A DNA stretch of 20,172 nt from a virus: IMG/VR virus record IMGVR_UViG_3300031620_000003, positions 1 to 20,172 of that record. One strand, written 5' to 3'. The translations under genes were made by a program, and so were the position numbers. Below, one piece after another: positions 4,549-19,248 of this stretch (positions are counted from its first letter, which is position 1; each line of letters opens with the position of its first letter). A model generated the notes under the pieces. The model was not told the DNA's origin. It was given only the letters and a program-made list of their open reading frames with translations, and did not search any database.

Positions 4549-6207
4549 TCAGTTCTTTAAAATATCCGTCAGGATATTGGCCAATATGTTTCGCAAGAGC
4601 TTTATTTCGCTTTGTGTCAGGATGACCAGGTTTTGCGTCTGCGGAATGAGCACGATAGCATTCGGGCTTATGGTAACGCCCCCTGGGAGTGCAACTATTT
4701 CATCCTGCGTAGCAGCCACCAGATTAATAACGCCGGGAGATATTGTAACTCCTACTTTGATCGTTCCTTCCTGGATCTGCGCCAAGACCGACTGAATTCC
4801 GGGCGTGATCGTGACCCCGCATTTTATTGTCTCTGCCTCAATGCTCGATATTAAATTCAATACATCAGGCGTTATAGTAGCACCTGCTTTTATCGTCTCT
4901 TCCGGACAGCTTGACGCCAAATTCAATGCCTGTGGGGTTATTTCAGCTCCAGCTTTTATTGTTTCTCCCTGAGCTACAGAGGCAAGATTGATAACTCCCG
5001 GGGTTACGGTTACTCCGCCGCCGCCTGTTGTATAAACAACTGTTAATGTAGCAGCATCCGCAGTTTCCTGTGCCCATATTTTGACATACCCAGATGTAGA
5101 GTCGTCGAGGAGTACAAAACCCCAATCAGTGTGCCCAGCATTAATTATATCCTGACATAAAGTTTTGATCTCCGGTGAATCTACCCATCCAGTTGCATCA
5201 ATCGTCCAACTGACAGAATTAGCAAGAGTAGCTATTGTATCAGGCCTGTCTCCACCAGACGCCCATGATATTGTATCCTTATCAACAGCTTTTAATAATT
5301 GCCCACTGTGAGTACTCTTAAAATTCACATTTACACTAATCTTACAACCATTTTCCGCTGTACCTGATGCGGTAACTCCTTCCCATTCCCATCCAGCTTC
5401 TGCTATAGCAGACCAGTAATAACCAGTATACAAAGTATTACCATACTGATCGTAAAAAGTGCCTCCCCAGACAAAACAATCATCTGCTGTAGCAGTTGGC
5501 CCCCAGGTCGTAGGAGAGAGTTTTCCAATTTCCTTTGCTGCATACTGTTTTTCTAAAAGACCTAATTCATGCTTTCCACCTCCAACCTCCTCATACTTAT
5601 GGTCGTCCTCCTCTCCTTTATTCCAAGAGAAGAAGAAGGAATCAAACATCAAAGATCGAGCTTTTGTGGCTTGCTTTTTCGCAAAATGTGGATATAACAA
5701 CTCCCCTTTTTCAAGAGTATCAAATTCAAAACACAGCCTCTGAGTAGTAGTCTTTGTAGCTTTTGATTCAACATCGAAAGAAAATAAAGCTCTACCATGC
5801 CCGCCAACTCTGACTCTTACCGTCCCCTTTTGATCCTCTGTGGATACAGCATAAGATATCTCTATCCTATCAGTTGCATCTTCCCCAGTAATTTCCCTCA
5901 CCTGGAAGTTACTCACAGCAGGAGTAGGTCTATTCCATAAAATCCCCCGTTTTACCTCTGGATAAAAACTGCCAGAAGTTAGAAGTTTGTCGTCTTTATA
6001 GAACTCCAGTCCAGTAGTGGTAAATTTAATTTTGCTGTCTCTAAAGGTTATGGTCTTGGAATTTGCATCCCAAAGATATGGAGCATACTCACCATTCCCA
6101 CAGTCTACATTATATTGACCAATGTTAGACTTGTAGACCTTCTTGTCAGAATCTTTGACAAGAAACTCCCTGCCATTCTTAGTCCATTTGTGGTGTATCA
6201 GTTCCAT
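4549..6207 (-). CDS. Tail-fibre/spike-like protein with C-terminal 22-residue repeats
   Basis: A 552-residue protein, mostly beta-strand. Residues 1-230 hold a beta-rich unit (YKSNIGQYNVDCGNGEYAPYLWDA). Residues about 230-395 look like a jelly-roll/DNRLRE-like module ending TLTVVYTT. After GGGG come six copies of a repeat with consensus GVTITPxVxNLxxxxxxETIKx (residues 398-531). The last 20 residues form an amphipathic helix (LLRNILANILTDILKN) that could trimerise the fibre. Codon use is more AT-rich than in neighbours, which fits a swapped receptor-binding module. The gene overlaps the sulfotransferase by 10 nt. A role in host binding is inference from architecture and position. Confidence 0.65.
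   Translation of the reverse strand: MELIHHKWTKNGREFLVKDSDKKVYKSNIGQYNVDCGNGEYAPYLWDANSKTITFRDSKIKFTTTGLEFYKDDKLLTSGSFYPEVKRGILWNRPTPAVSNFQVREITGEDATDRIEISYAVSTEDQKGTVRVRVGGHGRALFSFDVESKATKTTTQRLCFEFDTLEKGELLYPHFAKKQATKARSLMFDSFFFSWNKGEEDDHKYEEVGGGKHELGLLEKQYAAKEIGKLSPTTWGPTATADDCFVWGGTFYDQYGNTLYTGYYWSAIAEAGWEWEGVTASGTAENGCKISVNVNFKSTHSGQLLKAVDKDTISWASGGDRPDTIATLANSVSWTIDATGWVDSPEIKTLCQDIINAGHTDWGFVLLDDSTSGYVKIWAQETADAATLTVVYTTGGGGVTVTPGVINLASVAQGETIKAGAEITPQALNLASSCPEETIKAGATITPDVLNLISSIEAETIKCGVTITPGIQSVLAQIQEGTIKVGVTISPGVINLVAATQDEIVALPGGVTISPNAIVLIPQTQNLVILTQSEIKLLRNILANILTDILKN
4615..5016 (-). repeat. Six in-frame 66-nt coding repeats in the fibre gene
   Basis: These encode repeats of 22 residues (the fifth has 24) at residues 398, 420, 442, 464, 486 and 510. 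Constant positions are G, T/S-P and, in the first four copies, TIK at the end. DNA copies have diverged, so the repeat is old and kept by selection on the protein. It resembles a beta-solenoid or triple-beta-helix shaft, each turn adding one unit. Confidence 0.85.
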
Positions 6208-11337: not shown

Positions 11338-11388
11338 GGACATTCCTCTACGGGGACAATAAGGGACATTCCTCTACGGGGACAATAA
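11338..11388. repeat. Two tandem copies of a 25-nt repeat
   Basis: GGACATTCCTCTACGGGGAC followed by AATAA occurs twice without a mismatch, with one G between (period 26). Similar GGGACATTC...GGGGACA elements are familiar from intergenic REP-like repeats near REP-associated transposases in deltaproteobacterial genomes, from memory. This may be a remnant of such an element. Confidence 0.75.
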
Positions 11389-11476
11389 AGGACTTGACAA
11401 TGGTGGAAGGGTGTTAAGGATTGATATCAAGATTAATCAGGATGTTTTGCGGTCAAGTTTACCGCTGGTTACCCAA

Positions 11477-12814: not shown

Positions 12815-12996
12815 TAAAGAAAATACCCCTCACCATGCCCTGTAAAATCGCCCTTCTTCCCCTTTTATCCAGGATTTTGACCGTCGGTTGCCTGTTCTTC
12901 ATTCGGGTTGAATCCTGTTTTTATCTTCGCTCTCTCTCAGATTAGATGGTATAAATCGAATCAATCAGGTTAAAAATCCCCCTTTTTCGACGAAAC

Positions 12997-13311
12997 TTAC
13001 ATGGTTTTTACGAATAATTACATGGTTTACAACATGTTTTAATGCCCTTTTTTCTAATGATTTCAATACCTTCATGGTATTACCCCCCCTTTTTACTCTT
13101 TGTTACGAAAAAGTAAAAAATAAAGTAGATATATATATAACCCGTGCATGTACACACGTGTCATATATATATAAGAGTTTATGTACCCAAAACCATGTAA
13201 ACCATGTAAAATAGCCAGTTTTATTAATAATATCAACCTGTTAGCATTTTACAAACCCATGTAAAAGACCTGTAAAGACATGTAATCGGTGTGCATAAAC
13301 CATGTAATGGG
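12997..13311. repeat. CCATGTAA iteron-like cluster around an AT-rich core (candidate origin)
   Basis: TTACATGG occurs at 12997 and 13018, and the opposite orientation CCATGTAA at 13193, 13202, 13258 and 13300, with ACATGTAA at 13279 and partial copies nearby. Two copies form a direct AACCATGTA repeat with 9-bp period (13191-13208). In the middle lie two TATATATATA tracts flanking a CACACGTGTC palindrome (13129-13173). Repeats of one orientation on the left and the other on the right of a melting-prone core, next to primase and helicase genes, suit a replication origin. Confidence 0.6.
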
Positions 13312-16935: not shown

Positions 16936-17141
16936 GGTCTTTGCAAATTTACCCGGTATTCCTTCATCACCATGCCGAGCGCCCGATCTTTACCGATGTG
17001 GAAATCCATGCCGACCTGATCGGCGATATTCCGAAACGTCTCGCCGCCTTCCAGGCCCGTGTGAATGACGCTGCTAATGGCAGCCTCCTTTTTAGCCTTC
17101 TTAACCAGCCTGGTGAATTTTCTCCCCGCTCTTTTGCCCAT
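16932..17141 (-). CDS. Small basic protein
   Basis: A 69-residue protein with a basic start (MGKRAGRKFTRLVKKAKKEA) and a possible helix-turn-helix (GGETFRNIADQVGMDFHIGKDRAL, about residues 32-55), suggesting DNA binding. The RBS AGGAGG is 6 nt from the ATG and lies inside the end of the 217-residue gene, which it overlaps by 41 nt. Its stop overlaps the zinc-ribbon start in ATGA. No family recognised. Confidence 0.7.
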   Translation of the reverse strand: MGKRAGRKFTRLVKKAKKEAAISSVIHTGLEGGETFRNIADQVGMDFHIGKDRALGMVMKEYRVNLQRP

Positions 17142-17754
17142 CGTTATCCTCCTCAGTTGAAGATTGAAACAGCTCTGGTTTTTCTTTGAGCGTCCTTTTT
17201 ATCTTTTCATAAAGTGCTTTCCACTTTTTAGCCTCTGTTTTCCAATAGCGGACCTCTTTTTCCAATCTCTCGGCTTTTTCTCTCCAATCCGGGAGGGGTA
17301 TTACGCTTGCTTTTTTTGGTTTTCGATATTTTGCAATCACATTTTCAATGTCGTCTCTTGTAAGAAGTCTTTTCCGTTTTTTTTCAAGGTTGTTTATTTC
17401 CCTGATAACATCAGGAGCTTTCAAAGGTGTGCATTGGCTTATAATTTTTTCGATGAGAATAGGGCTGTATTTCATAGAAAAATCAGGAAAGTTAAAATAG
17501 GCCTTGCATAAATAATCAAAGGTATTTGGCCTTATCCACCATCGCACATAGAGATATGTCTCGAATGGGCTTTTTTTGAAGAAAGGGTTTTCTTGATAGC
17601 GGCGTGTAGTCTGTAGGGCATAAAGCTTTTGAATCTTTTGTTTATTTTCTTCTTTCTCATTTTTGATATGGCCTTCAATCTCTGACTCAATTTGCTGGAT
17701 CGTCTTTCCTTCTATTAGTTTTTTTAATGATTCTTTTATCTCTTTTTTTTTCAT
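17101..17754 (-). CDS. Hypothetical coiled-coil protein (217 residues)
   Basis: A 217-residue lysine- and glutamate-rich protein. Residues 1-50 are helical (KKLIEGKTIQQIESEIEGHI). Residues about 60-115 are more globular and aromatic-rich (ETYLYVRWWIRPNTFDYLCKAYFNFPDF). Residues 155-195 form a coiled coil (REKAERLEKEVRYWKTEAKKWKALYEKI). AAGGAG precedes the ATG by 6 nt. It is the first gene after the left repeat array and probably shares its transcript, so it could be a partner of the Tas-like protein, but nothing in the sequence proves this. No family recognised. Confidence 0.75.
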   Translation of the reverse strand: MKKKEIKESLKKLIEGKTIQQIESEIEGHIKNEKEENKQKIQKLYALQTTRRYQENPFFKKSPFETYLYVRWWIRPNTFDYLCKAYFNFPDFSMKYSPILIEKIISQCTPLKAPDVIREINNLEKKRKRLLTRDDIENVIAKYRKPKKASVIPLPDWREKAERLEKEVRYWKTEAKKWKALYEKIKRTLKEKPELFQSSTEEDNDGQKSGEKIHQAG

Positions 17755-17796
17755 GATATCTCCTTATGGTTTAAAATTAATGACGCAAGAGGCTGA

Positions 17797-18012
17797 TAGG
17801 TTTCATGGCATTTTTGGCTCGCATCTCATCAATAGGTTTCAAAAATCCTTTGGCTCGCAAAGATATAGTAGGTTTCATGAGATCTGTAGCTCGCACGCCA
17901 CATGTAGATTTCATTATACTATTGACTCGCAATCAATGAATAGGTTTCATAGACACTCTGGCTCGCAAAAATTTTTTAGGGTTCATTATTCGGATGGCTC
18001 GCAATAAAACGG
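17797..18012 (-). repeat. TIGR-like guide array, downstream block (six units)
   Basis: Six units of exactly 36 nt. On the plus strand each is TAGGTTTCA, 9-nt spacer, TGGCTCGCA, 9-nt spacer. Starts are 17797, 17833, 17869, 17905, 17941 and 17977. The T before GGCTCGCA is constant in five of the six (A-T change only in flanking positions), and single-base repeat variants occur in units 3, 4 and 6. A decayed unit (CGCA at 17784) precedes it on the left. All spacers differ. Dual 9-nt spacers between two alternating repeats in a 36-nt period fit a TIGR array. On the coding strand the order is TGCGAGCCA-N9-TGAAACCTA-N9. Unit 6 runs into the 3' end of the Tas-like gene. Confidence 0.88.
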
Positions 18013-18801
18013 TTTCACATATCCGGTGTGGCCCATGATGGTATTTGCATACGGCTGAGAAAACGGTATACCCTCGATCTCGTATGCCACAGTGATATAA
18101 TGAGCAAGAAAAAGCTTTGTCGTTTCGTTGCCTGCCATATTGTGCCAATAGCCCTTCTTCTCGCCTGGGTGCGTCTCTTGTCTATATGCTTTTCGCTCAT
18201 CATAGATCTGCCGGTATTTATGTCCGCTATTCTGTTTGATAAATGATTCGTAAATATGGAATCCAAGGGTCCGGCGTTTTGTCGACCAATCCGATTGCAC
18301 CCCTTTTTGTCGTTTTGGCATTTTCCCATCTTCCACAGGACGGCCCATATATTTCCACCAGGAAGAGACATTTGGAAAATGTTTAAATTCAAGTTTGTAA
18401 TTGAGAATGCCATCACCTTTCACGCTTTTCTTGCAGTGTGAGCACCAAAAACTTTTATCTTTCTTTTCAAGGAGAGTGCCGCATTTTTTGCACACGGCCG
18501 GGAACCGATAAAATAATGCTAAAATGAGCTCCGCTCCTATCCAGGGGCCGATGCCTGGGACATTGACTAACCATTTCAACCATACGTCCCAATATTCGAG
18601 CTCCTTTTCGAGCATTCGAGTATGTTTATTTTTGATCCGGTCTAATTCCTGGCATGTATCATCAAAATCTGTCTTTGAATCTGGATTAATCGATTGCAGT
18701 CTATTCTTACTTGAAACTAGAAGATGAGTTATCCCATCATAATTTCTCGCAAGGTACTTTAGCCTGTTAATAACGATTTCCGGCACTTCAAATGCTTTCA
18801 T
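17986..18801 (-). CDS. tasA: Tas-like RNA-guided protein, nuclease-less (TasA type)
   Basis: A 271-residue protein. Residues 1-75 are helical, probably the coiled coil. VNVPGIGPWIGAELILALFYRF (80-101) is the helix-hairpin-helix of IS110 transposases (Transposase_20), a fold shared with the RNA-binding region of Tas proteins. C104/C107 and C120/C123 add a zinc ribbon. WKYMGRP and HIYESFIKQNSGHKYRQIYDERK complete the domain. There is no RuvC (DEDD) or HNH motif, so it would bind but not cut. Start 18801 follows GGGGGA by 8 nt; an upstream GTG lies in the array. The gene is flanked on both sides by 36-nt arrays, and its last ten codons are array sequence. An orphan IS110 fragment is the alternative. 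Confidence 0.8.
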   Translation of the reverse strand: MKAFEVPEIVINRLKYLARNYDGITHLLVSSKNRLQSINPDSKTDFDDTCQELDRIKNKHTRMLEKELEYWDVWLKWLVNVPGIGPWIGAELILALFYRFPAVCKKCGTLLEKKDKSFWCSHCKKSVKGDGILNYKLEFKHFPNVSSWWKYMGRPVEDGKMPKRQKGVQSDWSTKRRTLGFHIYESFIKQNSGHKYRQIYDERKAYRQETHPGEKKGYWHNMAGNETTKLFLAHYITVAYEIEGIPFSQPYANTIMGHTGYVKPFYCEPSE

Positions 18802-18821
18802 AAATTTTCCCCCTGTTTTTA

Positions 18822-18937
18822 GGTTCGCAATCTTCACCTAGGTTTCATTTCCAACCTGGCTCGCATTTCCCCTTTAGGTTTCAAACCTCCAATGGCTCGC
18901 ATGACAGGCATGGGTTTCAACCGGATCGTGGCTTTTA
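18822..18937 (-). repeat. TIGR-like guide array, upstream block (about three units)
   Basis: The same two repeats in the same orientation and phase as the downstream block: GGTTCGCA (18822, variant), then TAGGTTTCA at 18839 and 18875 and TGGGTTTCA at 18911, with TGGCTCGCA at 18857 and 18893 and a decayed GGCTTTTA at 18930. Spacing is exactly 36 and all spacers are 9 nt and unique. The block begins 20 nt before the Tas-like ATG, and the ribosome site lies in that gap. Repeat decay at the outer end (18930) matches the decay at the outer end of the other block. Confidence 0.88.
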
Positions 18938-18945
18938 TTTTTTTT

Positions 18946-19248
18946 CTATTTATTTTCTCTCTGATACTCCGCCCGTCTCATAGCTGTATGAAGAGCAGTC
19001 AGTTTGCGCCATCGAGAATCGATAATAGTTTTGATAAGCTCAAGATCATGTTCCGCCCTCTCTAATTCCGGGATTAGAAGACCTTTAAGAAATGCTGTCT
19101 CTCTGCTTCCGCATTTCCTACACCGTCGTGCTTTTTTGAATAATTCTTCGACGTCTTTTTTAAGCGTTTCCTTGATATCCAGATCATCGAAATCTGAATC
19201 AAACACCTCATCACATTCTAAACACACCATCGCTTTCATTAATTTCAT
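18946..19248 (-). CDS. Zinc-finger, helical protein next to the array
   Basis: A 100-residue protein with CLEC (residues 9-12) and CRKC (43-46), forming one zinc site split by an acidic insert (DEVFDSDFDDLDIKETLKKD), then a long charged helix (PELERAEHDLELIKTIIDSRWRKL). GAGGAG lies 7 nt before the ATG. It ends only 9 nt from the upstream array, so the array is transcribed as its 3' trailer. It may be an early regulator or a partner of the Tas module; no family is recognised. Confidence 0.75.
   Translation of the reverse strand: MKLMKAMVCLECDEVFDSDFDDLDIKETLKKDVEELFKKARRCRKCGSRETAFLKGLLIPELERAEHDLELIKTIIDSRWRKLTALHTAMRRAEYQRENK

Follow-up and report, generated by a model that had tools for sequence, protein, structure and literature searches.

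A phage locus with the plan of a nuclease-free TIGR-Tas system, a zinc ribbon in its Tas protein and a candidate partner gene

What kind of system places a phage gene between two blocks of strictly spaced, 9-nucleotide (nt) repeats and equally short spacers? The window analysed here, the whole 20,172-base IMG/VR virus record IMGVR_UViG_3300031620_000003, is a fragment of a tailed phage with genes for a major head protein, a head-tail connector, a terminase and a D5-type primase-helicase, almost all of its genes lying on the minus strand. The locus in question very probably represents a TIGR-Tas system carried by the phage, of the type without a nuclease (TasA), and by the features tested it belongs to that family and type. 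What is read from sequence and a structural model is the plan and strand of the array, the identity of the gene, its lack of a nuclease domain, the cysteines of the zinc ribbon and, in two phages, linkage to a neighbouring gene, p2. New in this locus are a four-cysteine zinc ribbon after the helix-hairpin-helix and the gene p2; the system is probably a zinc-ribbon variant of TIGR-TasA. Its core consists of three features:

Positions 18826–18933, minus strand: TIGR array block 1, three 36-nt units upstream of tasA, beginning in the 5′-truncated edge AGCCA and ending in the degenerate edge TGCGAACCT.
Positions 17986–18801, minus strand: tasA, encoding 271 amino acids (aa) with a coiled coil, a GIGP-type helix-hairpin-helix and a Nop/IS110-type RNA-binding domain; a nuclease domain is absent.
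Positions 17784–17999, minus strand: TIGR array block 2, six 36-nt units, the first overlapping the tasA stop codon and the last ending in the 3′-truncated edge TGCG.

The array spans positions 17784–18933, in two blocks that flank a single gene, and consists of 9-nt repeats of two kinds alternating with 9-nt spacers. Parsing on the minus strand, which is also the strand of tasA, yields exactly nine units of 9 + 9 + 9 + 9 nt, with exact spacing in 9/9. The block-identity score at period 36 reaches 35/36, compared with 22 or less at the other periods from 30 to 42 and with a maximum of 26 across all of these periods in 200 dinucleotide shuffles, so that a chance origin of the array is excluded. 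The initial annotation had described a strict 36-nt dual-spacer array with six units on one side and about three on the other; our parsing agrees, placing six units downstream of the gene and three upstream.

The alternation of repeats given there also stands, but their strand does not: the meaningful strand is the minus, on which each unit reads edge repeat TGCGAGCCA, 9-nt spacer A, loop repeat TGAAACCTA (TGAAACCYA) and 9-nt spacer B. Published TasR arrays have UG (box D) at the start of each repeat and CCA (box C) at its end, with an A-rich loop repeat and an additional pair inside the edge repeat (Faure et al. 2025, PMC12045711); these features identify TGAAACCTA as the loop and TGCGAGCCA as the edge. 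Box D is UG in edge and loop alike. Published TIGR arrays start and finish in truncated edge repeats (PMC12045711), as does this one, with AGCCA 5′ of block 1 and TGCG 3′ of block 2. The two half edges (5 + 4 nt) plus 27 nt make exactly one 36-nt guide RNA (tigRNA), so the expected ends of nine predicted guides can be named.

Tas genes related to that of the window lie beside 36-nt dual-repeat arrays in 15 further virus contigs (16 including the window). The edge core GCGAGCCA or GCGTGCCA is found in most of these 16 loci, and in 15/16 the first base of box D is identical in edge and loop (T/T or A/A), matching the box D covariation between edge and loop reported for the family (PMC12045711). 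These comparisons bear on whether the array might be a protein-coding repeat, 36 nt being 12 codons. An open reading frame on the plus strand (17663–18007, 114 aa) does stay open through block 2. This reading is scarcely credible, however: the repeats are near-invariant and the spacers variable at all codon positions, the plus-strand frame runs against the operon, and the edge core GCGAGCCA recurs in most other Tas loci. Translated units or transposon ends do not account for direct repeats whose nucleotide core is common to other Tas-bearing virus contigs. CRISPR-Cas was likewise rejected, as in the initial annotation, which had noted the absence of a Cas gene: the repeats are only 9 nt long, and PADLOC found no match among ten window proteins. 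A search of Rfam gave no match.

The protein encoded between the blocks had been described as carrying an IS110/Nop-like helix-hairpin-helix, and the locus as a TIGR-Tas-like module. Both descriptions are supported by the motif itself, by a phmmer match of the tasA product to TasR (PDB 9mty) at E = 8e-29, and by an array plan and truncated ends as published (PMC12045711); the phmmer match to TasH is weak (6e-3). An AlphaFold2 model built with 19 sequences has a mean predicted local distance difference test (pLDDT) score of 83. Searched with Foldseek, it matches TasR best (5.2e-11), TasH next (8e-8) and the IS110-type recombinases ISCro4 and IS621 third (6e-4 to 9e-4), with nothing else below 1e-3. 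The NCBIfam model TIGR_Tas_endo matches as well (E = 8.8e-24), although under its curated cut-off. The comparison with Tas and IS110 families that had been proposed as a check therefore excludes a lack of similarity to Tas/Nop proteins.

The third-ranked matches raise the possibility of an IS110-like transposase with subterminal repeats or a bridge RNA, given the shared Nop/helix-hairpin-helix fold and the annotation of PHROG 4285 as ‘transposase’. We consider this highly improbable, as TasR and TasH are far ahead of IS110 in both sequence and fold scores. IS110 transposases such as IS621 share the Nop-type RNA-binding fold, but theirs comes with a DEDD catalytic domain and a single bridge RNA; the window protein has no DEDD domain match, its frame has no room for an N-terminal DEDD domain, and the repeats beside it are direct, not inverted, and form nine units.

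Within TIGR-Tas, the open frame is at most 283 codons and the protein starts at the coiled coil, so that a RuvC or HNH domain could not be fitted in at the N terminus. Because a nuclease domain is absent, the protein is a TasA, and cleavage is not expected, unlike for TasR. TasR from the TaTasR structure provides the best match in sequence and fold and shares repeats of the form UG...C(C/U)A with an A-rich loop, but its RuvC domain is absent from the window protein. The published TasA type (for example FpTasA; PMC12045711) likewise combines a phage setting and a Nop-domain protein without nuclease with two alternating short repeats, 9-nt spacers, a 36-nt unit, arrays up- and downstream of the gene and truncated edges. 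The window differs from it in a zinc-ribbon insert, a loop box C of CUA and the neighbour p2, the published neighbour being TasParB. The TasA assignment, the zinc ribbon and p2 all go beyond the initial annotation. Two further features define the variant:

Positions 18433–18492, minus strand: zinc ribbon coding sequence, C104-x2-C107...C120-x2-C123, an insert after the helix-hairpin-helix.
Positions 17101–17754, minus strand: p2, candidate accessory gene of 217 aa with an all-helical, low-confidence model and no known family, directly after array block 2 (gap of about 30 nt).

The zinc ribbon separates the helix-hairpin-helix of TasA from the conserved block that follows, and is missing at the corresponding point of TasR. 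Of all the other Tas proteins aligned, only that of a 36-kb phage contig (L036) has it. This is the closest relative, with a Tas 43% identical in the alignment and 17 units that carry the edge repeat of the window. L036 also encodes a p2 homologue (34% identity, E = 1e-19), which sits between two arrays. When 22 window proteins were compared with the relatives, L036 matched only tas, p2 and one small protein that also occurs in other loci, and none of the structural genes of the window. Of the other Tas loci found, L036 alone has the zinc ribbon and p2, and the phage that it comes from is otherwise unrelated to that of the window. With tas and p2 common to the two phages and structural genes not, tas, arrays and p2 look like a cassette, on the basis of two loci. 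Beyond L036, a p2 profile found no further member among the open reading frames of the fetched loci and contigs, tblastn found no match in phages (50,697 records, both versions) or plasmids (72,556 records), and nothing in Pfam or NCBIfam scored above cut-off. The AlphaFold2 model of p2 (pLDDT 61) is too poor for a fold-based reading. The published table of Tas proteins has 21,385 entries (PMC12045711), and zinc is mentioned neither in the main text of that paper nor in the main text of one review.

The zinc-ribbon insert and the candidate partner may mark a subtype. A stronger version, which we put forward tentatively and do not favour, is a distinct TIGR-Tas subtype in which a zinc-ribbon TasA works with p2 as a dedicated partner and has moved between unrelated phages as a single cassette; the effector step absent from a nuclease-free Tas would then come from p2 or the zinc ribbon. 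One more gene lies next to the arrays and is at most a candidate for association with the system:

Positions 18946–19248, minus strand: 100-aa protein with CxxC pairs, weakly matching a zinc ribbon, immediately next to array block 1 on its upstream side.

Elsewhere in the window, a stretch with few genes (positions 11338–11393 and 12990–13285) holds tandem repeats of 26 nt (96% match) and, beyond them, shorter ones (20–21 nt and 9–11 nt), with motifs resembling AAACCATGT; this is perhaps an origin or regulatory site.

The Tas relatives, obtained from IMG/VR and phage searches, are 20–43% identical to the window protein. In IMG/VR, alignment-based scans found relatives; single-sequence protein scans of IMG/VR and GTDB genomes found no relative, nor did an alignment-based scan of GTDB. 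One relative, among the 16 contigs with parsed arrays, comes from the cultivated Microcystis phage Mvi-JY20 (PP438412.1, locus L002), in which an intact tasA and a 36-nt array at 5570–5960 are annotated merely as a hypothetical protein. It resembles the window in its edge core TGCGAGCC, 36-nt units and tasA, but its protein is 30% identical over 63% of the length and has no zinc ribbon, its loop is CGAAACCCA, and its array lies downstream only, ending in a partial edge and then a terminator-like hairpin. In three other loci (L044, L045 and L046), Tas relatives are extended at the N terminus by a domain of about 130 aa, perhaps RuvC-like as in TasR, and no 36-nt dual-repeat array is detectable nearby; these are perhaps of the stem-loop array type. 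Actinobacterial phages and prophage-like contigs of about 53 kb (L003, L004 and L014–L029) encode Tas-like proteins, listed as hypothetical in annotated records, with no 36-nt array detected.

The arrays of six contigs (G013, which is the L036 contig, G001, G003, G008, G009 and G012) contain, within a given array, near-identical spacers of the same class, A with A or B with B, far more often than chance would give. Eight pairs agree at one mismatch or fewer, compared with 0.46 expected by column-wise permutation, and 0/2000 permutations reach as high, although the numbers are small and spacer boundaries and relatedness are only partly controlled. Recurrence is never of A with B, and the partner spacer is unrelated every time. 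This hints that TIGR arrays change by half-units; their mode of change is an open question in the field.

How might such a locus act? By analogy with the biochemistry of TasR and TasH (PMC12045711), we infer, as the initial annotation did for an RNA-guided function, that a minus-strand transcript would carry block 1, tasA, block 2 and p2, and that TasA-dependent cutting in the middle of the edge repeat (TGCG|AGCCA) would release nine 36-nt tigRNAs with the layout AGCCA - spacer A - UGAAACCYA - spacer B - UGCG. A TasA dimer would grip a single tigRNA by the box C (C[C/U]A) and box D (UG) motifs in its edge and loop. On the same analogy, DNA would be opened at adjoining sites, one strand pairing with spacer A and the opposite strand with spacer B, and the 18-bp site would be unwound and sharply bent. 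With the nuclease absent, the likely outcome, at a guess, would be a bent and occupied site that blocks a competing mobile element or a host gene from being transcribed or replicated. As a further conjecture, the zinc ribbon and p2 might add DNA contact, a partner function or effector recruitment.

Under the published rule, one strand of the target should carry spacer B and then the reverse complement of spacer A, with 0–2 nt between them, an order derived here from the reported 8-nt 3′ overhangs; the opposite order was tested as well. For 164 units in the 16 contigs, with both orientations and gaps of 0–2, the best own-contig match averaged 13.7/18 for real pairs and 13.7 for permuted pairs. 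Over 1.07 Mb comprising the window, contigs and related loci, matches showed no excess over re-paired spacers. A spacer-pair search, which the initial annotation had suggested for phages and plasmids of the host, gave no target pair above the permuted control in either set, and the parsed arrays show no detectable targeting of their own phages. This bears on whether TasA might regulate the phage’s own genes and not those of a rival or host. A phage-encoded protein without nuclease would suit such a role, but we judge it unlikely, since spacer-pair matches do not exceed permuted pairs in the window, itself only a fragment of the phage, or in the 15 other TIGR-bearing contigs. Pattern scans of IMG/VR with two of the window’s spacer pairs matched 1 and 10 contigs; the ten collapse by duplicates to about six unrelated places spread over gaps 0–2, so scattered as to be chance-like. 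Mvi-JY20, cultivated and with a known host, offers a tractable system in which to search for natural targets.

Several observations weigh against the TIGR-TasA reading. A natural target was not found in own contigs, in the 1.07 Mb or in the two IMG/VR scans. Box C is CCA in the edge but mostly CUA in the loop (CCA in one unit), and several units have altered repeats, among them TGCGAGTCA, TGAAATCTA, TGCGAGCTA and TGAACCCTA, which may leave some guides weak or inactive. Neither array end shows a clear promoter or terminator, and p2, with a ribosome-binding site, comes next after block 2; a Rho-independent terminator after the array is typical, though not obligatory, in published TIGR-Tas (PMC12045711). 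Finally, TasA scores 84.7 bits (E = 8.8e-24) against the NCBIfam model NF052498, TIGR_Tas_endo, below the curated cut-off of 100 bits; this is an endonuclease model, and the Tas of L036 exceeds the cut-off at 108.6 bits. The altered repeats and differing box C motifs could be those of a degenerate remnant, its gene and array homologous to working systems but no longer making functional guides. A remnant nevertheless appears improbable, as the intact tas frame runs without internal stops, most edge repeats are undamaged, none of the nine units departs from the exact spacing, and the tas gene and p2 are conserved with L036.

For the phage-borne TasA system that we favour, the locus is small (about 1.8 kb including p2) and its 36-nt guides are predictable to the base, which makes a direct test in E. 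coli feasible. The role of nuclease-free TasA systems is an open question in the field (PMC12045711), and a zinc-ribbon TasA with a co-inherited neighbour provides a concrete handle on it. If p2 binds TasA or is required for its effect, p2 would be the missing effector.
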